Assembly: GCA_014871385.1 (NCBI GenBank)
Contig: CM026426.1
Location: 59,682,084 to 59,746,083, forward strand
Origin: Ceratodon purpureus
Lineage: Eukaryota; Streptophyta; Bryopsida; Pseudoditrichales; Ditrichaceae
DNA length: 64,000 bases
Direction of reading: 5' to 3'
Below, one piece after another: positions 5,000-49,671 of this stretch (within the stretch, counting starts at the first letter, position 1; each line of letters starts with the position of its first letter). The position numbers and the translations under genes are program-made. Under the pieces are notes generated by a model. The model was not told where the DNA came from. It saw nothing but the letters and a program-made list of their open reading frames with translations, and did not search any database.

Positions 5000-5381
5000 C
5001 GACTGTACCTGTAGTGTCACTGTAGCTGTAGTGTCAAGGGTCTAGTCAGTAGGAATGCTCTGTGCGCCTAGATTTGTGACAACCAGGTCCGTTTTTGGAT
5101 ACTACGTAACACTTTGTACTTCAAATGGTATTGGATATGTAGTGTAAGGAAAAATATATAATGCCGAGAATTTCGGATCTTGGAATTTTGAATTCTCGCA
5201 CTACATCTCCCTTAAAAAGGGATATATTGGTGCTGATGGACCACAAGTTCGACCGTCTTCTATATTTCACAAATCTTGAGATTTGTTTGAAGTGTAGAGT
5301 TTTTTCGTGGGTGACTGTTGTAGTTTGTATAGGAGTGGTTGTTAGTTTTCTTGAGTTATCTAGTTGAAATACAAGGGTGAT

Positions 5382-7090
5382 ATGGCAGGTGAGGGGTCTT
5401 CAACGATTGAGTTTAGCCGTACTTGTTCTAGCGAGGATGATACACTGTGTGATTACAACTCTATTCCGGAGAATAGAGAGTGCATGGAATCTGCTCTAGA
5501 GCTACACCAATTACAGAGGGTAGAAGGTCTAGCAGGCTTCTCCGATTACAACGAAGTGAACGTCCTAGTGAGCGCTTTACCAGATCATATGCTGAACTGT
5601 GTTGAGGTCAAGGACGAGATTGAGTGTCCTGTGGTCCTTGCTGTAAGGGAACAGAGTCCTCACGAAACCCTCTCATTTGAAGAAGTTACTAGGACAAGAG
5701 ATTGTCACCTAGTCTCAGTGGTTTTGCCAACCGGAGTTGATCAACACTCCGCATTGATGATGGAGAGAGCGTTATCGAATGTTTCAATCAGTAGAGATAT
5801 GTTTGTCCAAGCGAAGGACCTCTGCAACATAGCAAACAATCGTGCACATGAGTCTTGGATGAAGCAGAAGGAGACTGCTAGCATTAGGCTCTGGAAGGAT
5901 AAGAACATTGGAGACGTTTTCTTTTATCAAGAACTTAGTCTGCTGGATATCAATAAGAAAGAACAAGACGACGCTCCCTTCACACTTGGAGTTCAAACAT
6001 CCTGGCAGAAGGCTATGCTTGTAAGATTTGGCCATGGAAGTGCTATTTCGGTGGACGCCACGTTCGGTACAAGTCACACCCGGGTGAGTGAAGTCTCCCA
6101 TAACCTGAGCTGTAGTAATTTTGTAGGTGTAGTGCAATAGGTTTAGGGATTTTTATTTTGGCATGTCCCAACACCTTGATCCAAAACCAACTCATGTGAG
6201 TATACTTTGATGCAGTATCCATTGTACACCGTTTTGGTGTTTGACGAATGGCGGAATGTTATTCCGGTTGCTTATATCATTGTCTCTAGATCGAGCAAGA
6301 TTGCTTTGAAATCCGTGCTACAGGCACTAAAGGACAAAGCCATATCTGTCAAGCCTGATTGGGAGCCATCTTCGATAATTGTGGACAATGCTTGAGCTGG
6401 ATTGAATGTCATAGGGTAAGCTTATACATTGACTTTATTTTCTTTTGAATTTAGTTTAGGATAATTATTAATGATCACGTGTAGTGCACCTTTCTCACAA
6501 CTACAATGCACTACAGGGAGTTGTGGCCGACGTCAAGGATCCTAATCTGTTTCAGGCATGTAGAGAAGGCATGGGCCAAAAATGCGGCAAATACAATACG
6601 TCGGATCGAAGACAGGACCGATATCCTGAAGGGTGTTGAAGACGTTCTGCACGGTGTAGGGTATGTTGTAGGAACTGATCCAGTGGCATGGGCTAACGAG
6701 GAGCTTGACAAGATTAAGGACGCACGGACTTCGGGAGCTAAGTTCATGGAATATATTGATAAGTACTGGAGAAAGGACATTGGGAAGTGGAGTGCTGCAA
6801 ATCAGGACTACCCTCATGCTGGCCAAAACATGCATGCTAGTATTCATTCATTCCAAGCTAGTTTGAAAAGGATTTTGATGTTGAGGAAGCAAAACGTCGC
6901 AGGACAGCGGTTGGATTGGTTAGCTGATGATCTCAAGAACAAGGTCACGGGACAGCACTCGTATGCTAGAGCCCTAAAGGAGTATGGTTTATATCGTAAT
7001 ATCAAGCAAGAGTTTATGAATGCTAATCCTCAAGAAGGGGCTTATTTCGATGGGGATTTAGTTTCTCTACTGAAAAAATCCGTATTGTAG
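5382..7090 (+). pseudogene. MULE transposase copy 1 (deleted, catalytic Glu lost)
   Basis: The exons I infer are 5382-6083, 6216-6415 and 6517-7090, matching the junctions of copy 2. The protein opens MAGEGSSTIEFSRTC, aligned with MATDGSSVVEISSTC of copy 2, then jumps to the transposase core. The first Asp survives (SVDATFGTSH) and so does the second (IIVDNA). TGA at 6393-6395 follows directly, where copy 2 has Gln. The third catalytic residue, Glu in GIESFHA of copy 2, is His here (CAT at 6845-6847, SIHSFQA). The C-terminus diverges after about 7020 and ends at 7090, so the SWIM zinc finger is absent. This copy cannot encode an active DDE transposase. Start choice follows the alignment with copy 2. 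Confidence 0.75.
6127..6136 (+). promoter_or_regulatory. TGTAGTGCA family motif in intron 1 of MULE copy 1
   Basis: This is one of ten exact TGTAGTGCA sites in the MULE region. The others are at 6480, 6507 (reverse), 7582, 9344, 9396, 10296, 10684 (reverse), 12057 and 12252. Near-exact sites with the TGTAGTGC or GTAGTGCA core are at 5199, 7680, 7738 and 12072. In this region all ten exact sites are in introns or flanks, none inside an exon. Confidence 0.7.
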
Positions 7091-7925
7091 AAAATCTGTG
7101 TAGCACATGTAGTACATGGATTTAGTGAACACTACATAACAATGGCAGATGAACACAATGATATTGAATTCTGACATGTTGTAATAAAAAAAAGCATTTG
7201 AGAACTATATATGGTGTGTACTTCCAGTCCCCTCCTTTCCAAAAAACGGGACAATATGATAACAAAGCTCTTGATTTTCTACACGTATGACCACCCCTTG
7301 CGTTGCTTACAGCAACAGAAGTGAGTGCATGCTGACCCATCTGAACATGTCTTCAATGTCGGTGAACCCTCCAACACACCAGCTATCAACACCTAGCCTT
7401 ACTTAAAGACTCATGTACCTTTCGACCTCCACATGAACTCTGTGTTTGCCACAAGTACATCAAACTCAAAATATACATAGTGTGACAATACAGATGTGAT
7501 GTTCTACGTACTGTTATAAATGCGAACTAAGGCCATCCTTACCTTTGTGCATTTTAACCCCACTTCTTACTACCAAAACCATGTAGTGCAAAGAAATGAA
7601 CTGCGAACTACAAGATCAAGACCTACGGACTGTTATGATGTACTATACAACAACTTGTCCTACACTCCATTGTGGATGAGTAGTGCAATTACACATCCGT
7701 CTTCCTGAAATTATGGATCTGGAAATTTTGAAATTGGCACTACAGCTTCCTTGTAGTGGAGGATAAATTGTTGGCTTCGGCCACTTATTCTATGGTCCTC
7801 CATATTTGTTATATGTTGAGGTTTGTATGCACGGTAGAGATTTGTTGGTATCGAGTGTTATAGTTCCTAGAGAACAGGTTGCTAGTTTCTTTGTTCCTTG
7901 ATATGGTAGAGAATTTGGAGTGACC
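7091..7925 (+). promoter_or_regulatory. Junction and 5' region of MULE copy 2
   Basis: This is a non-coding stretch between the two MULE copies. From about 7710 it resembles the 5' flank of copy 1: a block reading approximately GGATCTGGAAATTTTGAA, followed by GCACTACA at 7738. Motif sites lie at 7582 (exact), 7680 and 7738. The promoter and 5' leader of copy 2 must be here, but I cannot fix a TATA box or element end. Confidence 0.5.
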
Positions 7926-10900
7926 ATGGCGACAGATGGGTCCTCTGTGGTTGAGATTAGCAGTACCTGCACTGCTGAGGGTGACACACGTTCTGGTTCC
8001 CCTTATGAGAGAAACAAGGATTGCTTCATATCTTCTGTGATGCGTCGCCAGGTTCCTGATATCATTGATCTCACAAGTCCTTCCGACTATGAGAGGAAGA
8101 GTGCGCTTGGTAGAATTGCATCGAGTACGCATGACGGGAGGTCATTGCTAGCCCACAAGGTGAACTATGTCGATCTTGAGGATGACAATTGGTGTGATTT
8201 GCTCCTGGGTCGAAGGTCGCCGAGTCCTCAGAAAAGAACGTCTCATGTTGATATAAGCAGTGAGAGTCATCCACCTCGAGTAGTTCTGCCACCTCGTTTC
8301 GGTCATCACTCCCCTGAGGACGTGCCACACGGTTGTAGTATGACAAGCGCCTCCGAGGCATCACTACATGGCGCCATGTATCATCTTGAGCAACATCGTA
8401 CAAGTGACTCAGTCCGAACTACGAGCTCTCTTGCTTCCACGGGGTCGGAGGATGGGAGTGTGGACTTAGCTGCAGATATGTCGTCGTGTTCTACAGAACT
8501 GTCCCTAGCAGGTTCAGCTATGTCTACGTCTCTGTCCATGAGATCTCAGCGTCCTGCAAAGCCAAGTCCAAAACCACAATATGTTGATCTTGTCTCTAGC
8601 TATTGTACATCAAGTTCATCTGTCTCTGAAAAAGAGAATTTAGAGGATTCCAGAGGTAGTCAGTACGAAGTTTCCTCGACTTCAAATCCTTCCTTCAATC
8701 TGACAGGGCATGTTGTTGACGAGGGTTTAGATTCAAATTGTAAGGACAGCCACAAGCAATTTACAAACGTGAGTAGCGATAGGAATGTCAAGTTTGCTGC
8801 GGGGAACACTGTCCCTAAGGGAAAGGCTAACAGCGGTAGAGATGATAAACCAACAACCAAAGTGCCGTTGAAGAAGGAAAATCCGAAGGACAGCAAGCCC
8901 ATGCGGCATATCTTGTCAGAGGATTGGGAGGAGGATGACCCACCATACCAAGGGCCAGAGCGAGAGGAAGAGCTAGTTAGAAGGCTTCGAGAGATGAAGC
9001 AAACTCCTCCACCTGGTCCATTCTGTAGGGAGGATCTCACTTGGGAACCTATTTGAACCCAAAGCGGAGGCCGTTATTACATACACGAGGTCGCAGTCAT
9101 CCCTTGGAAGAGACTTTCAGACTTCAGGGAGGGCGAGGGACAGGACAAATTGTATCCTTGTTGCTTCAACAAGGAGACAGTCTACAAGAATAAGCCTGGG
9201 AGCTTGGTACTACCAAGGGCTAACAGTGCTGCCAAAGTTATTAAGTAAGTTCCTTCTCGTCCTTAATGTGCTCATTTGTTATTTTCTATTGTAGTGTATC
9301 ATTATGTATACTATGTAGACAATACAGGATTTAGGGTACCAGGTGTAGTGCATTTATTGTATACATTCAACTCAGGATACGCTATGTCCTTTCCATGTAG
9401 TGCATATAGATTTATCGGTATGGTATTTGATTGAACTTGAGCAGGTTCAGCTGTAATTTTGGACCTGAAGACAATTCACATATCTACATTAAGGACCTGA
9501 AGGGTCTTCTTCAAGCAGAACAGCAAAGGAGGAAGAGAAGGGTCACTACTGCAGTAGAGAAGAAGCGCAAAGGGAAGAAGGTTATCCCGGATTTCAATGT
9601 AATGTGTACTGATAGAAGTACAGGGCAGAAGAAGCCACGCATAGGTCAAAAGGCTGCTGGCATGTCCAGGAAGCGAGGATGCCAACGGCATTTCCTGGCA
9701 AAGCAGAACTACATGGACACTACGTTGTGCCAGTTAGTGTACAAGGTTACTGAGCACATAAATGTGCATGGTGAATTGTGCCACGGTGTGACGGTGGCTG
9801 GATTCAAGCACTCCATGGGGACTTCATTGTCGGAGAATATGAAGAACAAGCTTGGCAGTATGTTAGACATGGGATTGACTTCTACACAGGTTATGATCCA
9901 ACACAAGGCATGGGTGATGGAGATGGCACTGACAAACGCCCCAGTGAGCAGAGATATGTTTGTCCAGGCGCACGACGTCCGGAACATAGCAAACAAGCGT
10001 GCACAAGAGACTTGGATGAAGCACAAGAAGGAAACCGTTAGTATCAGGCTTTGGAAGGACGAGAACATCAAGGAGGTATTCTTCTACCAAGAACACGGTC
10101 TATTGGATGTAAACAAGAAGGAACAGGAGGATTCCCCATTCACACTCGGATTTCAGACAGTTTGGCAGAGGACTATGCTTGTGAAATTTGGCCATCAAAG
10201 TGCTATTTCCATTGATGCCACGTTTGGTACAAGTCACTCCCGGGTAAGCATTGTTTGACATTACTTGAGTACTGAAAAATGTTAGTTGATATGCATGTAG
10301 TGCAAGTAGGCTCAGTGAGTACTCAATGTGACTTAGACCTAAACCGTGGTCTGATAACAAGCTTTGTGAGCGTTTTGACTCGATGCAGTATCCATTGTAT
10401 ACCGTTATGGTGTTTGACGAGTGGCGGAATGGAATACCAGTTGCTTATTTCATTATTTCGAGTTCCACCGAAAACGCATTGAAACCAGTGCTACAGGCGC
10501 TGAAGGAAACAGCTTTAGCTGTCAAACCTGATTGGGAGCCCTCGTCAGTGATTGTAGACAATGCTCAAGCCGAGTTGAACGTCCTAGAGTAAGTGGAATT
10601 AAATTTCTTTTCAATTCAATTAGCATAAGAGGATTTGTACTTATTCAAGCATCAATTGTACTTTATGACTCTTACAGCCATGTTGCACTACAGGGAGTTA
10701 TGGCGGAGGTCCAAGATCCTACTCTGTTTCTGGCATGTTAAGAAGGCATGGGCAGAAAATGCGAAGAGCAAGATAAGTCGAATAGAGGATAGGGCGACTA
10801 TGTTGAAGGATGTTGGTGATGTATTATATGGCAAGGGGTATGTTGTCGGAACAGATCCTGTGGCATGGGCTAACAAAGAGCTCGACAAGATAAAGGAGAA

Positions 10901-12310
10901 ACGCCCTTGGGGTGCCAAGTTCATGAAGTACATCGACAAGCACTGGAGAAAGAAGATTGGGATGTGGTGTGCAGGAAACCGGAATGTCCCTCACGCTGGA
11001 CAGAACACAAATGCCGGAATTGAGTCTTTTCATGCTAATCTGAAGAGAATTCTCTTGTTGGAGAAGCAAAGATTTGCTGGGCGCCGGTTGGATTGGTTAG
11101 CAGATGATCTGAAGAATAAGGTCACGGGACACTACTGGTATGCGAGAGCCTTGAAAGAGTTCGGATTCATTTGCAATTTCTCACAGGAGTTTCTCATTGC
11201 CAATGCAATCCTCCTTGCATATGGGATCCCCGACTCGTATGTTTACTTGAATCCAGAGGGGGAGGATATTGCGCTGGTAGTTTCCGTTGCTAATTATCCC
11301 AAAGTTTGGACAGTATACGGAACCGACACTGAGTGGGCACAATGTGACTGTTTTATTGGTCAACAGAACACTATGTGCAAGCATGTTATGAAGGTTTTTC
11401 TTATGAAGCATCCTGATATTGATGAAGGACTGATTCTTAGGGAAGCCGGGACAAGGTGTGGGATAGAGAGGACGATTCCGATGGTGGACGCGTTTGGATC
11501 GAAAAGGGACGACTTTGAGGGTGCCGAGGAGGACTTCTCTGGCCTCCCTAAGGATGAAAAGTACAAGGATGCATGTGTGCCAGATAGAGGCTGCACAGGG
11601 AAGCCTGAGAACAACGCAGGACTTGGAACGGAGTCCAATCCGATTGTTCTACGGGATGTATCTCATCCACAGGAGTACAACTCTAAAGATATTATGGAGA
11701 AATGCTTTGGTACTGAAGAAAATCCCATTGACCTTAACCCCGTTCCCCTGCCACGGAATCAAAGAACTAAAGAAGACAGCCCCGTGGAGTTGATAAAGGA
11801 TCTCCTTGGCACAGCAGGTAAGCACACTGAGATTGGCCACCACCTGGTTGCTGATTTGAAGAAGATACGTGGGAAGTACAGGAAGATGATAGCACGTGGA
11901 ATTGCATGCAACGAGCTGAAGGACACTACCCCGAAATTTCCCTTGCGGGAAGGTGATTGGTCATTGAAAAGGAAACTAGGTAGACTAGAAGTACCTAGGG
12001 CCGGTAAGCGTTGCAAAAGTTAGAAGGTAGACCTCAATGACTATAAGCTAGACTCATGTAGTGCAATACAATGTAGTGCGAATGATATATTATACTATAT
12101 AAAACTACATGGACTTCACTATGACCGAGACATTCAGTCGAGTGAAGCACTATTCTGGTCTTCCATGCTCAGACGGTCACATGTTTAATTTCAATAAATT
12201 AGTTATGTAATCCATGTTCTCAAAATAAGATTGTGACGGTAATGTATTACGTGTAGTGCATATATAAGTGTATTTGGCGAAGAAACCATGACATGTAGTG
12301 GTGCTTTTTA
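7500..12310 (+). mobile_element. Mutator-like element copy 2, nearly complete
   Basis: This element carries one multi-exon transposase gene and ten of the window's TGTAGTGCA-type sites in its introns and flanks. The 3' non-coding tail (12024-12310) has exact sites at 12057 and 12252 and near matches at 12072 and 12294; beyond 12301 the motif stops. No long terminal inverted repeats could be paired by eye, so it may be a non-TIR MULE, as VANDAL elements are. Limits are set by motif density and by similarity to copy 1. Confidence 0.65.
7926..12023 (+). pseudogene. MULE transposase copy 2 with SWIM zinc finger, one in-frame stop
   Basis: Exons are 7926-9244, 9445-10243, 10389-10588 and 10694-12023. 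All introns are GT-AG and the sum is exactly 1216 codons. A single TGA at 9054-9056 (codon 377) interrupts exon 1; the frame continues open beyond it to the donor at 9245. Residues 1-430 are Ser-rich and probably disordered. A basic Cys/His segment resembling the FAR1/MuDR zinc-binding region follows (KRGCQRHFLAKQ ... HGELCHG). The DDE core has Asp ~697 (SIDATFGTSH), Asp ~763 (VIVDNAQAE) and Glu ~883 (GIESFHA). A SWIM finger lies at ~990-1005 (CDCFIGQQNTMCKH, C-x-C-x8-C-x-H). Such proteins cut and insert MULE ends in the nucleus. The stop makes it a recent pseudogene, unless it is bypassed. Confidence 0.8.
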
Positions 12311-13882
12311 ATTAGGCGATGGGTAACGCTGGCGCACGATCACGATGAATTTGAATTCTGTCGCAGTCCACATAGGAACTACATATTTAAGTTATATATA
12401 TATATATATTTATCTGTACTTAGTCATCTATTGGAAAGACGCTTTCTGTAATATGTCCTTTTCTAGCGGCTCTATGGTTGGACTTTTGACGTACAAGACC
12501 TACTTCCTTGACTACGAGATGTTCTCTGCTTGAATCCATTGATGCTCCTCTGTTGACCTCGGCAGTAATCCGGCACGACATTCCGTCCACAGCACCTGAG
12601 ACCATCGCCTTCCTAACTGCGTTCACTACCGGAAGTGAGTGACCTTATTGACAAAAAAAATGTAACATGGTGTTAAAACGGACATGGTTCTGTTGGTTTT
12701 CTGTAAGGAATCATCGCAGTGAAAAAAATTGACAAAACCATCAAAACGTTTCTGTCAGAATTGACAGTTACTGTTAAACTTAGTTCATGGGTTGCGTGGA
12801 TGGAATTTTCTACGATGGATGTCATCCTATCAGAGTTATCTCACGTGACTGATTTGTGGGCTGTACTTCTCTTTGTCGTTGTCCCTGTTCTGTTTATGGA
12901 TTTGGTAAAGCTACGAAGATTATTTAAATTAAATTTAACATATAAGTGAAATCATTCTCTGTGTTGTACATTTTGTTCTCGTTAGACGGGATGGGTTCAA
13001 GGTTGAAAGATTCTTCTGTCGCTCTCACAAGTGCACACTGTGTTTGGAAACTTCACATGTAACACAGACAACACGTATCAAAGGCTACGAGAACACTGTT
13101 CTAAGTACATGTGCACAGGCATTATCTGTGCTAAAACATTCAACATTCCGTGTTCATATTCCACACATACCCTGAACACTTCCTTCTGAATCTCACCTAC
13201 CAAATCCATGTAATGCAGCTAAACGACTCATACATATAAAACTTATAACACTCACATGAATCAGAATTCAGAAAAAAAAAAAAAAATCATTTTTGCAGTT
13301 CTAGCACTTCAGAAAGTATATCCGATTACAAAACGACATGGGTATACACAGTTACATTCTGTGCACCTCTGAGAACTTATGTCTCTAGTTTTACGCCATG
13401 AACTGTTTCACGCTACATTAACTACCGTCGCATCCTCATTTGAAAAACCTGGCACTGCATTCCTCTACAACAGGATATTTCACTTCCACTTGCAAATTCG
13501 AGCACCAAAACTCCCAGTTTACCTGTGGATATCTCGTACGGTTGTGGACCATTGCGCAAAAACCGTGTAAGTTCATTCTTCCATTCTTTCAGAGACGTTT
13601 ACCTGTAATGCGCAGACAACAAACATTTCCGATATCAACAAGACAGAGATAGAGAAGATCGATAATTATCTTCTTCGTTAAAGGAATTTATAATGAAATA
13701 GAACTGCCATTATCCAATTTCTAGTTCATCGCAAGACAGTTTAGACATAGACTCTCTTGCTCCATTTCATGAAGGTTGGCTTCTTACTCAATTAACGATT
13801 GCTGACCAAAAACAATTAAAAATTGTATGAAACACAAAAGAGAAGCATTACGGAGGGGGGACTTACCGTTCACGCTGCATTT
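12311..13882. other. Intergenic DNA, no gene recognised
   Basis: Beyond the MULE tail the sequence is AT-rich, with a short (TA)n run at about 12393-12410 and an A15-like homopolymer at about 13271-13286. Several ORFs of 60-75 codons occur on both strands, but none resembles a known family and none has a paralogue in the window. I see no RNA gene. Confidence 0.45.
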
Positions 13883-14941
13883 TCACTCCCGGGGTTTGGC
13901 AGTGGATCGCTGTTTTGATTTGCACACAGAGCGTCTTCCTGCTCTGTCGTACCGCGCTCGACATGCGGAACCCTGAGTGCTCACTGACGTCCTCGCCTCA
14001 TCTTCGCTTTCAAGGTACTCCTTGAAGGTCATCCTCGCACTTACGAACGAAACTGCAACTGCCGATGTTGAATTGGGTTCCTCCTCAGAGCCACTGGAGT
14101 CGGGGAGGACCAAGACGTGGTGAGGGCCGCGCACTCTTGCCTTCCATGAGCGAATTCCTGCAGCGGACGCTAAGTGTCTTGGAGCCTCCGCAACTTGATT
14201 GCCAGTCTGTTCACCAACACAACCACGACTGCGAAAGGCAACGCCAGCTGCAGAGGGACCACCGGTACGGAGATCACCTGGGCATGCGCGAGAAATGTTA
14301 CCACCGGTACGAAGATCATCTCGATATGCACGAACGCGGCCAAATGGATGTGCACGCACAGGAGGAGTGAGAGGAGGCGTGTAAATCCATGAGGTCACAG
14401 AGTTTTTTACGCTCGACGACTCCACGTTCGGAAACTTCCTATTCGAGCCCATGGATGGCGGGATCGCGACACTCTGCTTCAAATTCCGCCTCGGATGGAG
14501 TGCCCTGAATGCGGCACACACCTCATTGCCATGTGTTCTCCACGTACGAATACCGTTCTGGTTGCGCGGGGGATGCATGATCCCAGTGCAGTTTGCTACG
14601 GCTTGGAAAGCCAGCAATGCCTTCGGGGTCCATCTACCCGCCCAACGCGGCCCCACCAGAGCACGAACAAAGGAAAAGTCCGGGCACTTGAGCTTCGTCA
14701 TTTTCTGGAAATTGTCAACTGATTCCAGCCAGATGACCAAGTCACGGAGGAGACGTGGAGCATCTTCGAGGTGCTGGTAATGACCTCCACGTCTCCGAGC
14801 CGCGTCCTTCCAAATCTCCAAATGGGATTCCTCAAAGTCCAGATTCACCAAGCACTTGAGCGGGGGCTTCAGCTGCCCGTCATCGCCGTTCAACTCCCAC
14901 ACCTTTCGCTTCCCCTTCGAGACAGCGGTGTGCACATTCAT
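13883..14941 (-). CDS. Hypothetical protein, Arg/Ser-rich, unrecognised
   Basis: This 352-residue minus-strand ORF is long for this composition and lies in the same orientation as the two related ORFs at 16.7-18.7 kb. The N-terminal ~130 residues look folded and helical (LEIWKDAARRRGGHYQHL, LLRDLVIWLESV, WTPKALLAFQAV). The rest is basic and low in complexity. An internal duplication gives DDLRTGG twice. Near the C-terminus SSGSEEEPNSTS precedes MTFKEYLESE, which weakly recalls YTFEEYMSSL of the 17-kb ORF. No known domain is apparent. It could be a lineage-specific gene or part of an unidentified transposon, and it may have further exons. Confidence 0.4.
   Translation of the reverse strand: MNVHTAVSKGKRKVWELNGDDGQLKPPLKCLVNLDFEESHLEIWKDAARRRGGHYQHLEDAPRLLRDLVIWLESVDNFQKMTKLKCPDFSFVRALVGPRWAGRWTPKALLAFQAVANCTGIMHPPRNQNGIRTWRTHGNEVCAAFRALHPRRNLKQSVAIPPSMGSNRKFPNVESSSVKNSVTSWIYTPPLTPPVRAHPFGRVRAYRDDLRTGGNISRACPGDLRTGGPSAAGVAFRSRGCVGEQTGNQVAEAPRHLASAAGIRSWKARVRGPHHVLVLPDSSGSEEEPNSTSAVAVSFVSARMTFKEYLESEDEARTSVSTQGSACRARYDRAGRRSVCKSKQRSTAKPRE
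14258..14341 (+). repeat. 42-bp imperfect tandem duplication
   Basis: Two adjacent units starting at 14258 and 14300 share ACCACCGGTACG-AGATCA-CT and the following ATGC-CGA, with roughly ten substitutions. The unit length is a multiple of three, so the duplication keeps the reading frame of the overlapping minus-strand ORF. Confidence 0.75.
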
Positions 14942-18724: not shown

Positions 18725-21404
<2,680 letters not shown>

Positions 21405-36948: not shown

Positions 36949-39900
36949 CTAACACAGTTTTGTAATACATCTGTTGGTTTTTGTGTTAAAAGGGACGTTG
37001 TCACTCTGGTAGTGGTTCTTTAACTTCTGTTTCATGTCCAACACATCCCGAATGTCAAATACATCGGACATCTGCATCAACATAATGCCATGATGTAAGT
37101 ATAAGTACACGGTGTGCCACATAAGATACCTTTATGTCACACAGAGATACCCAAGAATGCGGTAGCCACATACTCTAACAGTGCTACGATTGAATATAAA
37201 ATCCAAAGGGGATTGATGCCCAAACCTCTGTTGTCCAGTCGATGTCGTTTTCCTTTCCCAGAAACGCCATGTATGTGATAACAAAGCATATGACGTAGTA
37301 TCCACACGACCATCCATCGCTTTGTTTGGGGCAACGAACGTGAGTCCAGGCTTTTGCGTCGGTACAAGTATTCCATCTGGGCGATCCTTCCGACTCACCT
37401 ATTGCCATACACCACAACTTGCCTAAATAGTCATGTAGTTTACGACCTCCATGGAAGGTGTTGGAATCTATGGCACCTGAGTCGAACTTGAAGAATCCAG
37501 AGGTCGACAATATTGCTAAGCTCCAGTGAGTACTGTCAACAATGGGAACTATGACTGTCGTACCCTTCATCCGTCTAAATCCTGATTTCTTACTATAAAA
37601 CCTTTGTAGTGCGTCAATTGAGTCATCTTCTTTGATGAGCGTACAAAGGCTAGTTGCTATTAGAGAATTGCACAATAAAACCTCGTTAGGAAGGTATGAC
37701 TGAAACCAAATACAAAAGAAATCCATGAGAGGCGTAGTGAGCAGTCCCTCTTGGGAATCTAGGGCTTTCATGTCCGGAATAGGGCGTAAAATCGTACTGC
37801 CCGAATCAAAAAGGAACTCCAGATGTCCCCTTGTGGTGTCGCCATGCGCCAGTCTTATACGTTCCATCATAAGATGGTAGGCACTGCAATACAGAACGAA
37901 CAGCGTATCTAAGTGTACCAACAACATGTAGTGTAAAATAATAATATGTAGTGCAGAGTAATAAATGGATTTTAAAGAAAAAGTGCACAACTACGGGGCT
38001 CTACAGCCAGAGGAATATTACTTGGATCTTTAAGTGAACATGTATAGAGCAGTGACATATACTACCTACTGTTTACAGTAGGTGAATCCATGGGGGACAT
38101 GAACAGTGCTACTGCTGTGCTCCCAGGTGGGGTCTCCTCCTGGGAAGTTATTGATGTCTGCTCCTCACAGGCCTCATCGGATGAAACCAATTTCAATGAA
38201 CGAATAGGGGAGAGCATTGAACGCACACGACACGGACCTAACCTAAAATCAACATGTGTTGGAGTCTTCCTAAACCAACTTGATCCCGCCCGCATGATTG
38301 GCGGTGATGGGTTCCTTATGTGTAAGGAAAGAAGTTCTCTCTCCCTCAAGGCCCGGTCCTCATCTAGATGCGTCGTATTAGGTATGGTGGAAAGTGTACT
38401 TGCGGCTACCGTTGTAACCATTTCTAAGGACATAGAATGTTGTTGAACTACAGTCTTTCCACTTGGGTCCACAACTTCAAGCGGCATGACATTGGCTGTA
38501 AGGATGGTTTGAGCGGTAATTGTTTCGTTATGTCCAGGGTAACCCAGCTCTCTGAAAGTCCGTTGGAGCTCCTTCTCACGAAGCTCCATAAACTTTCGTA
38601 CAACGCCATTTACGGACTCTCTCAAATCCTCAGGGACTGGTCCTTGATTGTCCAACCCCAACATTGACCACCCGATGTCCACATCCTCGCGTATACATAA
38701 CGACCTTGACATCACCTGTGTTGCAAGAGCAATCACATTTAGTGGCTATTTATATATACGATGGAGAATTACAGCGTTAATGATTGCTATGCAAATGTTG
38801 AAATAATGACCTTACTGAGTGTTTTTACCTCGTCGCAATGAAGGCGCAAAGTTGTAGGATCAGGTGGTCCACGAACCCACCACATGGCCGCAAGCTCGGC
38901 AGAATTTCTTCCTGTTCTGTGTAGGTCCACTATTGCTCGGCGTGCAACACGGTTGAGAAACTGCTCTATCACATGCAGTACGTCGTCCTGGTTCCATCCT
39001 TCAAAGCCCATTAGTCCCAGCATGTCACCCCAGCATCGACGAGGTGGAGCGCAAATTCCTCCAAAAATGCATGGGAAATATGCCCAGCCAATGTCAACAA
39101 CATCTTGGGCACATGCGGAAAGGCATTTTGATTCTACCTCGTCCTTTGCTATAGCAAGTATGTTTTTTCTTGTCATGCCTGTAACTGGATGTGAAATCGG
39201 CGAGCGTCGTCCAAGTGAGATGCGACCATATAACTTGAGGGCACGAACAATATGGGGACACTCCAGTTCCAGCGTCATTGGCTCGAGCTTCACATCCGAC
39301 TGTAGTGCACTGAGTATACAGTCTAACTCTTCCTATGTATGAGACCAAGGACGTGGAGGCATTATTGGAGATCCTTCCTTGCATAAAATTCGGAACATGG
39401 GGGACCATCCCCAATCCCTGTCTTCCAAACGCATTTCTTGCTTGCAGTCGTATAATCGGAGTTGGCCTAGAATATGAGACTTCCGCAAATCCTGTAGTGC
39501 AATATCTGCATTGAGTCGTTTGGAGACGTACAAAATCTTGTCCTTCAGGTACTTCAGATAGTGCTCCAGCTTGGTAAGTTCGTTGGTTCTCCCGTCGTGA
39601 TTTACCAACTCAATATAGGGATTCCATGGCTTCACAGACATCATGACGAAATTCACTTGTTCTTTATGTAGTGCGTCACGATCCCCCAAAACCTGCAATA
39701 CAGAGAGCGTCGCAAATCAGGCATTTCCGCCTGCACTACACGAGTATGTTATGAATAAAGCTAAACAAAACCACAGCAAGTGGGGTCCTACACGCGGGTA
39801 CCTGTGATTCTTTCCATTGTACCCACGGTCCTATAGAAGCATGTATGCGTTCTCCAAGTTCATCTCGTGATTCTAAAATTCGAAGCTCCGCCATGCATTC

Positions 39901-41586
39901 TTCATGGTTGTGTAGGAGTCTGCGATCGATGATAGTGCTAGCCGGTGAATCCTGGATCAGGTGATACAGTCCGGGACTACTCTGTACCTGAGGAGGACGG
40001 CCAATATTAGGGTACGTGTTCTCCACTGTTAGTGAGGCTGCATACCGCTGGGCCTTTTCCAGTACTTCTTCTCGCGTATAGTCAACAGAAAACGTATAAG
40101 ACGATATGGGCGCATCTTCATGCACTACATTAAAGTGGACGGCTCCCATCTGCGACCCAATACGTGGGGAGGTATGAAACCGGGATGTATCCTCATGATC
40201 TGCTGAAGGCAGATTAGTTGTGTTGGGATTGTCTTGCATCCGTGAGAGCACCTCCTCCTCAGCTACTACGTCCTTCTTCCTCTTACGTGTGCCTGCTAGC
40301 GAATTACTCTTCTTCTTCATAGGACCTTTTGGATGTCCTCTGGAATGAGCAGGAGCAACTAGCGACCCTTTGCGATCTCGTTTGGAATACTTCACCCGGA
40401 AAACCGTATCCACTGTATCAGAATATTCTCCGAGGGTCTGCACTACAGTATGGCTATCCTTCGTGAACCTGTCATGCATTATCGTGGTCCTCTCCCTCTC
40501 AACCATCTCCTTTTGTGCGCATTCTTTCTTCTGGTAAAGCTTTGTCACATGTGGCTGTTGCGTAGTGCAAAGTCCCTCTTTCGGTACCTTCTCGTTGGGC
40601 AAGACTACATCCTTACTTGTCCCTCGACTGGTTTCCTTAAGAGACTCCCTAGTCTTTTTGGACTTTGGCTGCACTACACGAGGTACCTGTACCCTCGGGT
40701 TCCAGGGGCGGTGTCCCTCTTCCTCTGGGAACTTCAATCCTCTTTCCTGTAGGATACCTTTGAGCACGTGCTGTTCACTCTGAGTAAATGTTGGATACAT
40801 TTTCAACACTCCAGACCCAACTTCTCTCCACTTATCACACTGGTCCTTATAACGATGATACGAAAGTGTGTTCTTGTCGCTAAAGTCTTCATGACAGTAG
40901 TTGCACCAATAGAAATAGCGCTTCTCGTGCCCAGGGTTCTCGTAGTAGTGATAACGGCAGGTGTAGTGCGCCTCAACTACGAGATCCTTGTATTCCTGCT
41001 CAGTATATAGACATGCGCACGGCACTCTACCTTGCTTTAACTCTGCTCTATAGACCCTCTCACCTCCAACCTCATACCCCTGCAACGTAAAGCAAAGGCC
41101 TTCAGAGACCGTAACAACAACTTCTGGTACAATCACAAGTGCAGAATACAACGAAGTGCCTCATGATATTCTACTGACTATGACGTACCTCTTGCAAACC
41201 TTGCACTCCATTTAGCAATAGCGTCTTCCACGTTGCAACTCCAAGCCCGTCTATAATCCGCTTATCCTCGTTCACAATCAACTTATCATCCTCAGGGAAT
41301 TGAATTCTAGGACCTGTCACACCCACACCTAGAAAAGATATGGAGCCTGTACTCATGGCTGGGGGCAAATGTGGTCTACTGTCAGCTGTAGCTCCGCTAC
41401 AGCTCACACCCTGTTTGGGACGTCCCGGCACATGTTTTTTGAAGACAAGGTCTGTATCTGTAGATGCATCGTCGTCTTCTTCTACACTGTTTCGCAGCCC
41501 CAACAACGGTTCAATAGCTTCGTCAATACTAGTTTCTCCTACAACGACCTGTTGAGACCTTGCCCTCGTAACTCTGCGGTTGTTAT
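36949..41586 (-). pseudogene. Zinc-finger/Ulp1 accessory gene, copy 1 (one in-frame stop)
   Basis: Exons are 41189-41586, 39802-41079, 38829-39692, 38066-38715, 37226-37883 and 36949-37071, all GT-AG. The first starts mid-codon, so a 5' exon is missing (perhaps 42.0-42.3 kb). A C2HC finger lies at 40837-40908 (C-x2-C-x12-H-x5-C, WCNYCHEDFSDKNTLSYH). A basic linker and a helical middle (CAQDVVDIGWAYFPC, GFEGWNQDDVL) follow. The C-terminal Ulp1/C48 peptidase has His (37526-37528, STHWSLAI), Asp (37491-37493, FKFDSG) and Cys (37304-37306, SDGWSCGYYV). TAG at 39333-39335 interrupts WSHT/EELD where copy 2 has Glu. C48 enzymes cleave SUMO-like tags; transposon versions are known from Kaonashi-type MULEs. 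Exact TGTAGTGCA-type sites lie inside several exons. Confidence 0.75.
37226..37883 (-). other. Ulp1 (C48) peptidase exon of accessory gene copy 1
   Basis: The exon encodes the whole catalytic triad in the canonical order His-Asp-Cys, with Gln (PKQSDGWSC) a few residues before the Cys as in other C48 enzymes (oxyanion-hole Gln). The exon joins upstream in phase 2 (AG|TGC) and downstream to the short last exon (MSDVFDIRDVL). The fold should be catalytically competent if expressed. Confidence 0.75.
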
Positions 41587-42359
41587 CTATAAAACCCCAA
41601 AAAAAGAAAACAACAAACAAAAAACCCCGGAATCAGTAGAGTGTTGTTCTATAGAAAAACGAAATTGAAAAAAACCTGATAGAGTATGAGGACATCACTA
41701 CGACTCATAGAATTCTATCACGTGTTTCTGCAACTGTATTCCGGTCTCCACCTCACTATCTGTATGAGAATCCTCAGCATTCACCCCTGACCCTAATCCA
41801 ATAGCAGAAGGACTTCATATGCAAGTTATGGCTACAAATCTCAATACCCAACACTTATATCTACACTTATACTGTGTTTCTTCCCAAAACGGACACTGAA
41901 AATGCCTCACCAGAACAACCCACTTGCAAAAAAACAAGCTACACTCAAAACGAGATACAAATGCACACTCATCCCTAACCCCTGCTCTCTGAACTTGTAG
42001 GACTCACCTGATTCCATCTCGTCGTCTTACTCTCTACCAAGAACTCTGCCACAACCATCGCCGTGCCTCTCACCCTTCCCAATCGATGAAACGCCAGAAA
42101 TTACACCCATGATTGTAGGATCGCACCAAGATTCCGCAGGTTCCAACACCTCCCCCAACATGCCATCGTCCCTACAAAATGAAGTCGACCCACATCCTCC
42201 TTGCAAAAGTTTCGACTCATGTCTACAATGAGGAGACCACGTCCTTTATAGCTAAGAAGGCCTTGATACAGAACACGGGAGGAGCAGCACACGTGTGCCT
42301 GCGGACCATATGAAGTGGACTCTAGCCGAGACAGGCGGTGGCCGCGGCTCTAAAACTGA
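41587..42359 (-). other. 5' region of accessory gene copy 1
   Basis: A first exon is expected here because the exon at 41189-41586 begins mid-codon. A candidate on the minus strand reads MLGEVLEPAESWCDP at about 42.1 kb; another frame gives a 63-codon ORF (42101-42292). Neither can be chosen from the sequence alone. No TGTAGTGCA site is present. Confidence 0.35.
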
Positions 42360-44560
42360 ACGATCACCCTAAGCATTACCATGCTAGAAATTATTTATCC
42401 AGCATGGTGTAACTTCGAAGTGGATGGCTCTTTAAAAAATTAGAGAACTCAAAAATTAAATATTGTATAAACGTATTAAGATATTTACTAATTGAAAGAT
42501 TATTTAAGTAATTCATGTTTTTAACCATGTTATAATTTATTTTTCTTAATACAAATAAGACCTGTTGTAAGCAATACATTTCCTAATCCTTCTACCTATT
42601 TCTTCGCATCATTTAAAGTTTCCCCCTTACCTAGGAGAAATAACGCACTATCCTAATACTTTATTTTTAGTTATTGTAAATTTATAAGGCATATGCTAAT
42701 CCTTCATTGAATCTTGCCTTGTTCGACCACGTAATTTTAATTATGTTTCCTTGTCTTCTCCTCTATTAATTTGCATCTCTTCTATTTTTTTCTTAATTTA
42801 GTTTCTTACTCTAATTCAATGCTTCACATTGTTCTTATTTTTTTTACTTTCATTCCTTCTTTACTTCTTATGAAGATCACACATTGCATTTTTTTTTATT
42901 TTAAATATATTCACTTTGTTTATTCAGCCTTTTGTTTTTTGTGTCCTCCAAAAACCTTATCTTATATTTCATAATATTCCTTGATTTACATATATAATCT
43001 ATTTAATTAATCAATTTTCTATATATGTCTTTGTATTTTCCATGATATGCATCTCGGAAATTTATATTATTATTGCAATTATTTATATGTCTAAATCATA
43101 TAATTTTATATTTTACCATTTGATGTTTTTTATGATTATCTCTATTGCAAATGTTTTTTTTTTTTTTTTTTTTTTTTTTTGTTTTTTCTTCAATTTTTTT
43201 GCGATTTTCACTTTGCACATTGACCTTTTTTCCTTTATCTCTTAATTTAAATCGTTTAATTTCATATTTCAAATTTTTTTATTTTATTTTCCAAATCTCA
43301 CTACATCTACATTTTTTATTTTTATTCATCCTTGTTTCGTTATTCCTTACGTTCCAATCTCAGCTTACTTACTTATTACTTTTTTCCATTCGGTGATATT
43401 CTCACCTTGTGCATCCATCCTTCAATCTTCTTAATTACGTTCCACTTATCTATATACGGTGTATGTATTTGATGTTTTTATTATTTATTTAATATGTTAT
43501 CATCCTCATATTTTGAATTTTTGGGTTTTTATTTACTTCTCGTAATTTATTATTCTCTTTAATCCCTAAACCTTATTCATTATGGCATTAAACATTTTAT
43601 CTTTAAATAATATATATATTTTGTTTTAATCTTTAAATTGTGACCGACCAATTATTTTTATTTTTATTTTTAAATATTGTGTTTATTTTTTCTATTATCT
43701 AATTCTCTTCTTTTAGTTTACCTTAGTTTCTTTCGATCAATTTTTATCATGCCTAGCTTTCTTCATTTGTTTTATTTGTTTTTGAGCATGTATGTTTCTC
43801 CAGTTTAATAAGTTTTCTTTATTCATGTATATTGTATTTTTTTATTGCATTAACATAGAGTCTTTATATTTTAAATGTATTCACTAAAATTTCACATCTG
43901 AACATTATATTTTATTTTCTCTGTTTCAATTTTAATCTACTATCTACAAGCCTTTTATTTTTAAATAATAATTTTATTTGATTCATTTATTTTCCTTCTT
44001 CTATTATTATCGTTCATGATATTCATTGATTTACACATTTTATTTTATTTTTAATTTACTCCACAGTGGTTTAGAAACTATTTTCTTGTATTTCTTTCTT
44101 CTTCTTCTAATACGTTTGATATATTTCTCATTTCAATGTTTATTTTTTAATTCCATTTTTTTTTAATAAAAAAATCTTAATATTGTAATTCTGTATATCT
44201 AAAATCATTCACTTATTACTTCCTCTTACTCGATATTCATCCATTCAAAATCCACTGTCGTTTAATCCTTTTATAATTGACTTCCTTCTGCAATACACAT
44301 CCTTCCCTTTTATATCCTCATGTATTTCCTTAACACCTTTTTCCCATTTCTTATTTGTTTTCCATAGTGGTTGTTTGTTTGCTTCAAAATGTGTTACGTC
44401 AGTATCCGTATAGTTTGTTTAATTATTTCACTTTTTTTTATTTCTGAAATTTGAATGTTCTCACTCAATATACTGGTTGCGGAAAAATAACTAAATAATT
44501 TAAAAGCCACAATCAAAATGTACAGTTAAAAAGTTACACAAAAATTTACCCCTCGAAATT
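42360..44560. repeat. T-skewed AT-rich block between the two accessory genes
   Basis: This is about 2.2 kb of very AT-rich sequence with a marked excess of T over A on the plus strand, including a run of about 30 T at 43153-43181. Open frames in it (for example 42771-42974 and 43145-43396) encode only Phe/Leu/Ile-rich strings and are compositional artefacts. There is no tandem periodicity that I can see. Its edges are fairly abrupt against the mixed composition on either side. Confidence 0.7.
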
Positions 44561-44662
44561 TACATCTGACCCTTGAAAATGGCGGCATTTCAAAATTTCT
44601 TGCATCTATACACTACATAAATTATCACTCCTACGATGATTGTACACTTCATCAACAACCTC

Positions 44663-47600
44663 CTAAAATCCAACAGATACACTACATCTGCGTCGACCTG
44701 CCTTTCCGCTACTCAATGCAAAGACTATAGCTTCCTTCAATCCCTTCCGTAGTACAAAAATCTCGTTGTGCTCGAAACAGTCCGACATCTGCAAACATAA
44801 TCGAAACATTAATATTATGTTGTATATCAAACGAAGAGACCCTAATCCAGAGTTGTGCTCTTCGTAAACTGACAAATATCCAAAGCACTAAACTCAGCAC
44901 AGCACAATACTCGATATACACTACATGACTACATTCACTACAACACTACAATCATTCAAGTAGTCCATAGAGCAGGTTACTTACATCACCCTCCCAATCC
45001 CTCTCGTTGGCGGTGGTTTGCTTCAAGTACGAACTCAACATCACAATATAGCACCCTACATAGAATCCACATGTCCAATCGTCTGGTTGCTGTGGACATT
45101 TGACATGGACCCATGACTGAATAGAGGACGCCCGCTTCCACTGAGGAGTACCCGGTCCATGTCCATTGGCCATGCACCACAACTTTGCCATTGCCACGTG
45201 GAGACATTGTGGCCCATGAAAGTTTGGATTTGTGTGATAACCTGAATCAAACTTGTAGAAGCCCTCGTCTGATATCACCGCCAAACTCCAGTGCCTGCAA
45301 TCAAATACTGGTATGAACAGTATCTTGTCCTGAAAATTAGCAATGTAAGGGTTGTCCTCATAAAATCCACGTAGTGCGTGTTGTGAGACAGATCGATTTG
45401 TAAGGATTCTTAGTGACACTGCAAAATCGGTCTTGCAGATAAGTACGCCAGGAGGTGTATCACCCTCAACCCACTTAGCAAACCAATCCATCAATGGAGG
45501 ACTCAATCCCATCCCAGATAGATCCAGTATCTCCATGTCTCCATCCTCGGTCAGCCTGATCTTCTCATCGCCAAAACAGAAGTCAAAGTATCGTCCTCTC
45601 ACACGGCCATCTTCTAGAGAGATTTGGTCCATTGGGAGATTGAGTAAGCTGCAATAATAGAAACCCTTTATTTATACAATGCGCATGTTCAGATCCAGAA
45701 AAATGCCACAGGGAGCAAGTAGCTACTTGACCTATACCGCACTACAGATTTCCTTAGCACTACTTCTTTGGACCAAACGACAATTGAAGCAGTAAACACT
45801 ATGCTACTCCTCATGAAGTAGCAGACATAGGAATTGTAGGGCTACACTACCTACTAGGTGTGTGGACCTCTTCGGTAGCAGGTCCATGCACTACATCAGC
45901 AGCACTTGCAGCCTCCTTGTTCGCAGGTTCCTCCTCTCTTCTGAGAACATTTTGGCTTGCCAATGCTGCCCCTTGAATGTCTCCTTCAACCATTGCAGAG
46001 GCAACGTCTCCAAATGAACCCTCGTCTCCATGATCAAAGTCCAGTACCCGCATGGGTGTATGACATGTACCTGAGCCTTGACCAAGCATAACTTGAAGGT
46101 GATACGGAGTCTTGCGGTGCCATTGTGTACAACCATCCTCCATAACCACCGGCCTTGGCATCTTTATGTGCTCGCAAAGGAGACGTCTCTCCCTGTCCTC
46201 TGTACCAACATCTGGAGAGATCTCAATTTGAGACCAATCTAACTGTTGTGTAAACTGAGAGCCCACAATCTGGGACATCTGAGGAATCTCCAGATGATCC
46301 AAGTTTACAGGACTGCTCATCGACCTTGGCTCCGAAGCTCCTCCATCAGAATATCCAAGAAGCTTGAATGTTATGTCTTGTTCCTTGCAGTGCAACTCCG
46401 TAAGTACGTCGACGACCTTCTCTACACATGGTCTTAGATTCTCCGGCGGTGGCCCTTGATTCTCCAACCCAAGCATAGACCAACCCAAGTCGACGTTTTC
46501 TCCCAAGATAAACACCCTAGAAAACACCTGAAACCTCCCACCCAATACAATATTCAAGTAAGCCTCACATTCACCCTAAACTGGGCTGCACTACAACTCT
46601 CTCATACTAAGGTAGATGTGCATTCTAGGCATTTAAAGCACTTACAAGACTCAATGCAAGAGCACGTCCAAAAAAAAAAACGCCAAATTCGAATGTAGCT
46701 CACCTCCTCACACTGCAGTCGTAGTGCACAGACATCCTCTGGTGGAGGGGTGTACCACATTGCAGCCACATCGGATCGATGCTCATCAATCCGATACAGA
46801 TCTACAAGGGCACGACGAGCTATCTTTCGAAGAAAAAGTTCGACCTTCTCCAGCACAGGATCCTGGCTCCACCCTTCGAAACCCATCAATGCAACCATGT
46901 CGGAGCATGACATAGACCTTGGTTCTGTAGTTTTCCTGAATGTGCATGGAAAATAAGCAAATCCAATGTCAACCACGTCTTGGGCACATATGGACAATCG
47001 CCGTGACTCCACTACATTTTCAGCAATCTCCAGGAGCTTTGGCCTGGTTACACCCTTCACTGGGTGTGCTAGTGGTACACCGCGTCCCTCTATCATTCTA
47101 GTGTATAGTTTTAACGCACGCACTACATGTGGGCATTCGGACTCAAGACTAGACCTGTTAGTCCCTACCTCCTCCCCTAAAACCCGCATGATCTCCTGTA
47201 GCTCTTCCTCAGTATGCTTCCAAGGTCGTTGTGGTCCGGTACTTGGGAGGTCCCTGATAAGGGCCTGATAGATAGGCGACCACGACCAAAGCCTCTCCTC
47301 TACTGCATAGGCTTCCTCCTTTGTCTCCAATTCCTTCAACGCTTTTTGTATGTGCGAGTCTCGTGCTTCTTGTAATGCACCATCTACATATACCTGGTAC
47401 TCCCGAAGCTGCTGAGTGTACTCCAGATACAACTTAAGCTTCTTTAGTTCGTTGTCTCTGCCCATCTTGTCTTCCATCGCACGATATGGGTTCCAACAGC
47501 TTGTAGCACAGTGTACAAAAGACTGCATTTGCTCTTCATTGGGAAAGGTGGCCATGTCATCCTTCAGAGCACGGGGAACGGTCTCAGTGCAAATACATAA

Positions 47601-49564
47601 GTCAACCATCACAAATTGTGCTACACTACATCAACTCAGTATAGTTGTGCACTACATTAACTTACTGTAGCTTCATTAGTTAGGAAGTTAGCGATTTACT
47701 TACCACTCTTGCTAGGCGCCATTGTACCCAGTGACCTAGCGCTGAGATTATCTTCTCTGATAGTTTCCCATTACGTTCCATGCTGGTAAGGTGCTCCATG
47801 CATTGGATAGGCTGCATCAACAAGTCCTTCTCCACTACACTGATAGGTCCTTCACTGAGTAGGTAGTATAGGCCCGGCATAGGCACAGACTCTGGGGCAT
47901 CACGAAGATCCCTAACATCATTGATAGTAAGGAGGTCTGCTTCACGCTGAGCCTCTCGAAGTACCTCATCGCGTCTCTTACTTGATATGTGCGATACTGG
48001 TGAGCAAGAGGTGGTGGGTAAATGGAGACCGTTATCTGCCATGGCCTCTTGAACCTCGCCTTGGTCCTATGTCATTACAACGTTATCCTCCATGTCTTCC
48101 TCACCTTCATCATAGATCAGATTTCTAGGTTTCACACGGAAATGTTGATGGTCGTCCCCTGTTCCTTCAGAATGTGCAACATTCAGTATGCACTGTGCCA
48201 CTGCTTCTCTAGGACTATCAAACTCTTTGTCTGACTCCCCTAAGTCGATAGCGTTCCCTGAAATCCCCGCACTACCTGAATCCACCCTTGTCTTCTTCCT
48301 ACTCCTGGTTTCACGTACCGACTGCAGCCGCCTCATACTCTTTCTCCTTGTCTCGAGCCCGTCTCTTTCGCTACCATCCCTTGTACTCTGCGACCCTGTC
48401 CTCGACCTTCTCCTCTTATTCCCGCTACCTCCTCCCACATCGGTTGTAGTGTCCGCCGAGGATTTGTGAGCAAAGTTTGGAAGGTCGGGAGAACTTACCA
48501 CAGTATTCTTCATCCTTCTTGGACGCATCGAAGGTGCATGTAGTGCATCGGATCTGCGGCTTTTGGTGTGGCTCTTGTCCCCTCTGCTACCTATAACCCC
48601 TGTTCCCCTTTCACCCCCTCTACTCCTCGAAGTTGACCCTAAACCATCTCCATGTGCTCCAGTTGGATTTGCCGCCCCCTCTTGTCGTGGAGCCCAAGGC
48701 TGGGACCCTGACTTAGCTGGGAACTTGAGCCCGCACTCAGCTAGTATGGTCTCAGCAGCCTTGGTATCGCTAGGTTTGAATGTTGGATACATCTTCAAAA
48801 TCCCTCCCTTACCATTCTTCATCCTCCTCCATTCTATGCACTGATTTCTGTGGCGGTGATAGGACAGTGCATTCTTGTCGGAGAAGTCTTCATTGCAGTA
48901 TAGACACCAGTACCATCTTCTTCTATCCTTCCCCTCGATAACATGGTAGACGTGATATCTGCAGTTGTAATGGGCTTCTACTACCAGGTCTTTGTACTCC
49001 TGCTCCGTAAACAGACATACACATGGCTCACGGCCGTGAGTGAGAGTGCACCGATACAGATTCTCACCTTTCACCTTTGCCCCATGTACTAAACCCACTG
49101 GCCCATTCAACACTATGTCCCACCACTTTTCAAATCCTAACTCTGCAATAAGCCTGAAATCCTTGTTCACCCTAATGCTACCAAGCTCTCTGCCCTCTTC
49201 ATACTCAGGACCAGTTATTCCAATACCATACCCCTCGATTTGTGTATCAGAAATTGTTCCCACTTTGTGCCTCTCCGTGCTGCCCTGTCCATCGCTGATC
49301 ATTTCTTCGTCCCCCCCACCCTCCATTGTCCCTCTGACCTCGTACCTGTAGAACTATTCCCTTCAAATCTTGCTCCCAGTTACTACTACCCTGCTCCCTG
49401 CGCCAGATTGTTCCTACTAAGTGTCCCCAGCTTGTATCACTTCCACAGATCCATTCCACAATGTATTCCCGATTAGCTATCTTCTTCAAATTATCAACCT
49501 TGACAGCATACCTGATATCCGAAATTCTTTGAGATGCTCCAGTACCAACCCCAACATCTTCCAT
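44663..49564 (-). pseudogene. Zinc-finger/Ulp1 accessory gene, copy 2 (one in-frame stop)
   Basis: This is a tandem paralogue of the 36.9-41.6 kb gene in the same orientation. Exons run 49564-49346 (probable), about 49320 to 47704, about 47590 to 46704, 46527-45851, 45648-44985 and 44788-44663. Lengths of the last three differ from copy 1 by multiples of three. The C2HC finger is at 48838-48909 (WCLYCNEDFSDKNALSYH). The Ulp1 triad is His 45291-45293, Asp 45246-45248 and Cys 45069-45071 (DDWTCGFYVGC). TAG at 48067-48069 splits VVMT/DQGEV; the frame is open on both sides. The intron that copy 1 has at 41080-41188 is absent here (NGPVGLVHGAKVKGEN is continuous). Substrate and partners are unknown; a role with the TGTAGTGCA family is inferred from the shared motif. 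Confidence 0.75.
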
Positions 49565-49671
49565 CCCCTACCATGATCGCAACACAACTCTGTCGCCACT
49601 TCTTCGGGTTGACATCCAGCATTAATCAGACATCTACGAACTCTGGAATTCGCAATCCTTACATTTCGCAC
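49486..49671 (-). CDS. Possible alternative first exon of accessory gene copy 2
   Basis: A 61-codon frame (RVRRCLINAGCQPEEVATELC ...) overlaps the start of the 49346-49564 exon in another frame. It may be the true first exon, spliced at a GTATGC donor near 49515 (after EFRIS), or it may be chance. The matching part of copy 1 is too diverged to decide. Confidence 0.3.
   Translation of the reverse strand: MRNVRIANSRVRRCLINAGCQPEEVATELCCDHGRGWKMLGLVLEHLKEFRISGMLSRLII

Follow-up and report, generated by a model that had tools for sequence, protein, structure and literature searches.

In the literature consulted, the system known in detail in which a transposon lifts its own silencing by way of a short DNA word is that of the VANDAL elements of Arabidopsis and their VANC proteins. 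In the available excerpts of that work, VANC binds short words that occur densely in the VANDAL family it belongs to and reduces DNA methylation, the words being YAGTATTAY and AGTTGTCC/AC (PMC5735166, PMC10398659), and transposon anti-silencing is suggested to be more common (PMC10398659). Capture of Ulp1 by Mutator-like elements (MULEs) that lack terminal inverted repeats (TIRs) is dated, in the accessible part of PMC13317346, to the monocot-eudicot separation. Here, we describe a giant MULE of the moss Ceratodon purpureus that lies in a 64,000-nucleotide stretch of contig CM026426.1 (assembly GCA_014871385.1, positions 59,682,084 to 59,746,083; this whole stretch is the window) and is crowded with the word TGTAGTG. 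We put at roughly 55% the likelihood that TGTAGTG(CA) is recognised, in a family-specific manner, by one of the element's own proteins, most likely a zinc-finger protein with an Ulp1 partner, that would act as a VANC-like anti-silencer.

A dense word within one giant element

Exact TGTAGTGCA occurs 21 times on the two strands of the window, where 0.43 occurrences are expected and 100 dinucleotide shuffles gave a maximum of 3. Ten of these sites lie at 5-12.7 kb, 11 lie at 36.9-49.6 kb and none lies elsewhere. An earlier note on this DNA, made from its letters alone, had listed these sites and claimed that they were confined to the two intervals; both claims hold, with two positions shifted by one (45887 and 46587 in place of 45888 and 46588). 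In the window, TGTAGTGC is found 29 times inside the intervals and twice outside, GTAGTGCA 24 times inside and once outside, and all one-mismatch forms of the 9-mer together 32 times inside and 15 times outside. The informative part is a 7-base core, TGTAGTG, after which CA often follows; it has 48 occurrences inside the intervals (21 + 27) and 3 in the remaining ~43.6 kb. Twenty control stretches of the same genome, chosen by coordinate and amounting to 181,690 readable bp, contained 19 cores and 2 exact 9-mers, so that core density is ~23 per 10 kb in the intervals and ~1 per 10 kb in control DNA.

The two intervals had been taken for two separate gene sets, a view that has to be given up. 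They are the two ends of a single MULE, which occupies window positions 4695-50703 and is split by a nested CACTA element. Its TIRs are imperfect and ~31 bp long, and it is bounded by a perfect 9-bp target-site duplication (TSD), GACATTTAT, at 4686-4694 and 50704-50712; MULE TSDs measure 8-11 bp, usually 9, and MULE TIRs are long in many elements but short or missing in others. A genome search for two of the 9-mers placed 5 bases apart returned one place, L001 on contig C6, and the similarity of L001 to the window starts exactly at 4695. The TIR pattern itself marks 28 ends genome-wide (reversed control, 0), which by adjacency form nine convergent pairs spanning 9.4-46 kb, three of them 21.4-21.7 kb, and ten lone ends. 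A complete copy on contig C7, read whole, measures 21,434 bp, carries the TSD ATAAGCTGG on both sides and is 98.7-99.1% identical to window positions 4695-12624, 37015-42800, 42888-49657 and 49743-50703. Both insertions read at both ends, that of the window and that on C7 (2 of 2), thus have a perfect 9-bp TSD. Taken together, the TIRs, the TSD and the complete C7 copy mean that the copy in the window is this same element, interrupted by 24,391 bp of inserted DNA; two independent gene sets are rejected on the shared TIR pair, the TSD and the unsplit C7 copy. The features of this locus are as follows.

4695-50703 (+): the giant MULE insertion in full, 46,009 bp with the nested CACTA element counted in; TIR pair, TSD and complete C7 copy
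4695-4725 (+): left TIR, GCGTCGCGTTAATCACCCCCCTACAAACTTC
50673-50703 (-): right TIR, GCGTCACGTTAACAACCCCCCTACGAACCCC
5010-12300: TGTAGTG cores in the left half of the element, n = 21, of which 10 are exact TGTAGTGCA
37605-48547: TGTAGTG cores in the right half of the element, n = 27, of which 11 are exact TGTAGTGCA
5364-7090 (+): MULE-type gene copy 1, open frames 5364-6140 and 6485-7090, shorter than copy 2
7228-7560 (-): Ulp1-like remnant, convergent to MULE copy 1, tblastn 34% amino-acid identity over 113 residues, E 8e-7
7926-12023 (+): MULE-type gene copy 2, open frames 7902-9056, 9431-10258 and 10629-12023, weak SWIM match
12624-37014 (-): nested CACTA transposon, 24,391 bp, ends CACTACCGG...CTGGTAGTG, 3-bp TSD GTT
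37184-39716 (-): Ulp1 gene copy 1, open pieces 39716-39333, 39332-38787, 38745-38062 and 37990-37184
39736-41632 (-): zinc-finger gene copy 1, open frames 41632-41171 and 41160-39736, C2HC-type finger
44952-47630 (-): Ulp1 gene copy 2, open frames 47630-46602, 46575-45847 and 45671-44952
47680-49353 (-): zinc-finger gene copy 2, with a single stop breaking its frame in the window

No 7-mer is more enriched in the C7 copy than TGTAGTG, which has 49 occurrences in 21.4 kb where control DNA predicts 2.1-2.4 (the control for 7-mer expectations comprised the 20 stretches plus the CACTA element of the window and its flanks, 224 kb), and the 21 one-mismatch 7-mers reach 0 to ~3 times expectation. The cores divide 24 to 25 in orientation overall and come in runs of like orientation, with 14 switches against 24.5 expected, a number as low as that in only 21 of 10,000 shuffles. 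By our exon map of this copy, 26 cores lie in 8,282 non-coding bp and 23 in 13,152 coding bp; sites occur in introns, intergenic DNA and exons, at a greater density in non-coding DNA. Density peaks upstream of MULE gene 1 and between the exons of MULE gene 2, four cores stand near the left element end (5010-5199), and a closely spaced run occurs at 44919-44944.

The element consists of two tandem rightward MULE-type genes, with two gene pairs, each running from zinc-finger to Ulp1, converging on them. The two MULE copies share 68-71% of their amino acids over matching parts. The window MULE frames had no match to PF10551, the MULE domain, in Pfam scans; a homologue, P0018, which aligns to the window MULE protein with 42% identity, matches it with E 8e-5 at 23.4 of 27.6 bits, below the curated cut-off. 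The features that assign the element to the MULEs are, then, a MULE-type transposase (through P0018), a 9-bp TSD and TIRs of ~31 bp. Ulp1 copy 1 has a Peptidase_C48 match below the cut-off; copy 2 has one above it (E 2.5e-6) and also matches yeast Ulp1 (1euv, E 0.0015). The decayed third Ulp1 piece is present in the C7 copy as well. Zinc-finger copy 2 is open in the C7 copy, at 557 codons from stop to stop, and the finger, C-x2-C-x12-H-x5-C, is conserved with its surroundings in 11 aligned sequences (2 from the window, 9 homologues). Scans of viral and GTDB contigs confirmed no relative.

The nested insertion is a CACTA transposon by its CACTA...TAGTG ends, its 3-bp TSD and its tnp2 transposase (E 9e-65); it also encodes DUF4218 and, below the cut-off, DUF4216. 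It holds just two motif cores, which is chance level, and so provides a built-in control. CACTACA agrees with how CACTA termini begin, and the word might have been explained as such termini; this was rejected, because the sites are scattered and the genuine nested CACTA element has two cores only. An AAAT-type tetranucleotide repeat lies within that element at 20828-21018. Adjoining the MULE insertion, positions 324-3005 are part of another tnp2-type (CACTA-like) element, whose frame 1455-3005 (-) has a Transposase_21 match just under the cut-off.

Retention of the word and its spread through the genome

Coding sequence carries far more sites than its protein product would demand: the window element has 20 coding sites, against a mean of 3.28 and a maximum of 10 in 2,000 synonymous shuffles, and 12 of the 20 read antisense to their gene. 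The two paralogous zinc-finger/Ulp1 sets, whose DNA is 50% identical and whose alignment is partly uncertain at that identity, bear 11 and 10 cores, none of which coincide; the MULE paralogs (71%) bear 3 and 2 sites, two of them common to both. The sequences flanking the 21 exact sites have nothing in common.

A diverged relative on contig C1, L031, has 27 cores in 10 kb. Of 10 sites in set 1 it still has 8, against a retention there of 0.201 for 7-mers in general (P = 8e-5); of 14 in set 2 it still has 5, against 0.091 (P = 0.006). At conserved residues, codons are identical in 19/23 cases within sites and 784/1277 outside (P = 0.027); amino-acid identity is 23/29 within and 1344/2071 outside (P = 0.07). 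By these comparisons the word appears to be kept by selection.

Genome-wide, the pair TGTAGTGCA-N(0-60)-TGTAGTGCA occurs at 73 places in 43 loci (30-kb clustering). It is present in all nine TIR-bounded elements and within 25 kb of 8 of the 10 lone TIR ends; the nine elements make up 0.069% of the genome and hold 13 of the 73 places, and 21 more lie no further than 25 kb from a lone end. Among the matches listed, 11 of the other 39 places have an Ulp1-gene place no more than 25 kb away. A 25-bp unit containing the word is repeated at C6:15072274 and at C6:54184285, with unit number differing between the two.

Further observations concern individual copies and contigs. At C6:53598501-53638500 (L024-L027) is a copy that ends after the start of MULE gene 2 and aligns to window 4695-8132; it has 7 cores in 2.8 kb, and the following ~37 kb has 6. 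A 20-bp tandem repeat containing TGTAGTGTACAAC, with at least six pairs, lies at C1:7945999-7946125 and is possibly unrelated to the family. Contig C6 (110.5 Mb, 30.5% of the 362.5-Mb genome), where the window lies at 59.68-59.75 Mb, carries 17 of the 28 element ends and, among the matches listed, 82 of the 119 Ulp1-gene places. According to the accessible part of PMC8000587, the C. purpureus genome measures 360 Mb and its U and V sex chromosomes exceed 100 Mb each, ~30% of the genome; C6 is probably a sex chromosome of this moss. If so, MULE ends and Ulp1-gene families are concentrated on it.

The Ulp1-gene exon is found at no fewer than 119 places in the genome. Among the matches listed are 10 loci of a related family in which the two-copy layout persists, the copies being 7-8 kb apart with 37-48% identity, and none of these has a TGTAGTGCA pair within 25 kb. 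In 10 kb read of one such locus, L032, TGTAGTG occurs 7 times (1.1-1.3 expected), and the top 8-mer with one wildcard, low-complexity words being excluded, is TGTNCTGC, with 19 occurrences against 1.3-1.7 expected. In the C7 copy TGTNCTGC is near background (5 versus 2.7-3.5 expected). The halves of the C7 copy (32.3 and 33.3) and L031 (47.2) have top words that score above those of 20 of 23 control windows, in a comparison that excluded low-complexity words and words with fewer than five copies and dropped 3 of the 20 coordinate stretches (mostly N or AT-rich). What is distinctive about L032 is that its top word is a near neighbor of the word of its sister family; judged from this one locus, the word seems to differ in the related family. 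Five overlapping TGTACTGCA pairs, an array of the sister-type word, lie within ~160 bp at C2:8863294-8863455, ~0.1 Mb from a related-family locus at C2:8.75-8.76 Mb.

What might read the word

The word is sharp, kept at scattered sites, tied to the family and apparently replaced in a sister family, and it is for these reasons that we infer a DNA-binding reader encoded by the element. In the scheme we propose, this protein, most likely the zinc-finger one, would read TGTAGTG(CA), and the many sites spread through the element would let it distinguish copies of the family from all other DNA in the genome. By comparison with VANC, its binding would lift silencing from its own family and from nothing else. 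The Ulp1 partner may target SUMO or ubiquitin-like marks in the vicinity of the bound sites, and each related family would evolve its own word. The earlier note had already drawn the analogy with VANC; the part of it that stands is a word that is tied to the family, sharp, retained in L031 and apparently shifted in a related family, while the VANC domain itself did not turn up and binding and an effect on silencing are drawn by likeness to Arabidopsis.

A number of observations weigh against this proposal. Pfam scans of the element frames of at least 120 aa and of homologues, at E up to 0.1 or 1, did not find DUF1985 (VANC), although a relation at the level of fold may exist, and the AlphaFold models of the zinc-finger homologue P0001 (mean pLDDT 36) and of the N-terminal exon of the Ulp1 gene (mean pLDDT 50) were too poor to use. 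The rightmost ~2.1 kb of the element holds no cores, and 23 of the 49 sites of the C7 copy are exonic, whereas VANC21 sites are described as mainly non-coding in the available text of PMC5735166. A closer truncated copy, E2, keeps 7 of 10 alignable sites where 0.44 is expected (P = 0.09), so that its retention above expectation is only suggestive. The reversed control of the 9-mer pair has 38 places to the 73 of the pair itself, and 28 of the 73 are near neither a TIR nor an Ulp1-gene place among the matches listed; at least 10 of these (C4, C5 and C6:9.99 Mb) have matched strings that by eye are nearly identical to those of TIR-bearing loci. Across all contigs, the looser pair TGTAGTG-N(0-30)-TGTAGTG shows no enrichment (607 versus 1,374 in the reversed control), and the effect therefore belongs to the family and not to the genome. 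As to the related family, its word comes from a single 10-kb locus, L032; in 5 of the 23 control windows the top word scores at least as well as that of L032; and TGTACTGCA pairs occur at 12 places (control 0), none of them at L032-family loci. Finally, the finger is nearly identical between the families, so any change in specificity would have to sit elsewhere in the protein.

Other readers of the word are conceivable. It could be bound by the MULE transposase, as an array for transposition or self-regulation, with the zinc-finger and Ulp1 genes acting otherwise. Repeated subterminal sites are a feature of En/Spm-type elements, the transposase weakly matches a SWIM-type finger, and the sites extend over most of the element, the left end with its four cores included; such an array should, however, lie near both ends, and the sites observed are dense in the interior and missing at the right end. 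We regard this explanation as unlikely, and note that under it the shift of word between families could still track the transposase. It is rather improbable that a host transcription or silencing factor reads the word and is either exploited by the element or directed against it. The peaks of density upstream of MULE gene 1 and between the exons of MULE gene 2 would suit such a factor, as would the retention of sites above expectation, but in control DNA the word is no commoner than chance predicts, and a related family of this genome appears to differ in its word, which suits a reader encoded by the element better.

We give very little weight to the idea that the motif acts in RNA, for example as UGUAGUG bound in element transcripts. 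UGUA begins PUF-type sites and orientation is locally uniform, yet the overall balance of orientation in the C7 copy and the antisense majority among the coding sites of the window element speak against it. Equally slight is the chance that the word has no function and spread as a shared repeat, by descent or by local duplication. Some sites do lie in short tandem repeats or in tight runs such as that at 44919-44944. Descent from a common repeat, which the earlier note had named as a case that would overturn its reading, does not fit with unrelated flanks around the 21 sites and with paralogous sets in which no site of the 11 and 10 coincides; retention in L031 and the exonic excess over synonymous shuffles also stand against it, and we judged a shared repeat to be unlikely.

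If the proposed reader encoded by the element is real, it would suggest that an internal address word with a self-encoded reader is a recurrent strategy of plant MULEs, carried out here with another set of proteins. Were families of like layout to carry different words within one genome, the coevolution of reader and target could be tested directly, and readers of this kind would be candidate tools for targeted epigenome editing. A broader proposal, which we hold tentatively and at somewhat under even odds, is that giant moss MULE families each have their own word and a zinc-finger/Ulp1 reader that no recognised domain links to VANC, that anti-silencing evolved here independently of VANC or long before it, and that word and reader have diverged within a single genome. 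The literature matches listed for moss MULEs, Ulp1 and anti-silencing, a set with most subscription journals outside its scope, include no report of this element, and those listed for the bare 9-mer look like unrelated sequence matches.

Comparison with known transposon systems

MuDR of maize has convergent mudrA and mudrB genes, a 9-bp TSD and long TIRs and, to our knowledge, neither Ulp1 nor a dense internal word. The moss element resembles it in the convergence of transposase and accessory genes and in the 9-bp TSD, and differs in its short TIRs, its Ulp1 genes and its dense word.

The KAONASHI (KI) MULEs, as described in the available portions of PMC13317346 and PMC2528002, have an Ulp1 domain opposite in orientation to the transposase, and the same reversed orientation is found in the moss element. 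In KI, a VANC-type gene carries the Ulp1 domain, whereas here a distinct zinc-finger gene adjoins Ulp1, and each of the two is present in duplicate. Given the dating of Ulp1 capture to the monocot-eudicot separation in the accessible part of that work, the moss case would be older or independent.

From VANDAL and VANC the moss element differs in the absence of DUF1985 from its accessory proteins in the Pfam scans, and also in its 21.4-kb length, duplicated genes, short TIRs and moss host, and in being known from sequence alone. By the DUF1985 test it is not a member; in layout and word it is VANDAL-like. To judge from the available excerpts on VANDAL21/VANC21 and VANDAL6/VANC6, both systems join a MULE and accessory genes to a dense short word that is tied to the family, and copies of the family are marked by density and not by single sites. 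The cores run in the same orientation over stretches, and tandem repeats that bear the word vary in number, as they do in the accessible part of PMC5735166. Finally, a related VANDAL family has another word, and the same may hold for the moss element, to judge from one 10-kb locus, L032.

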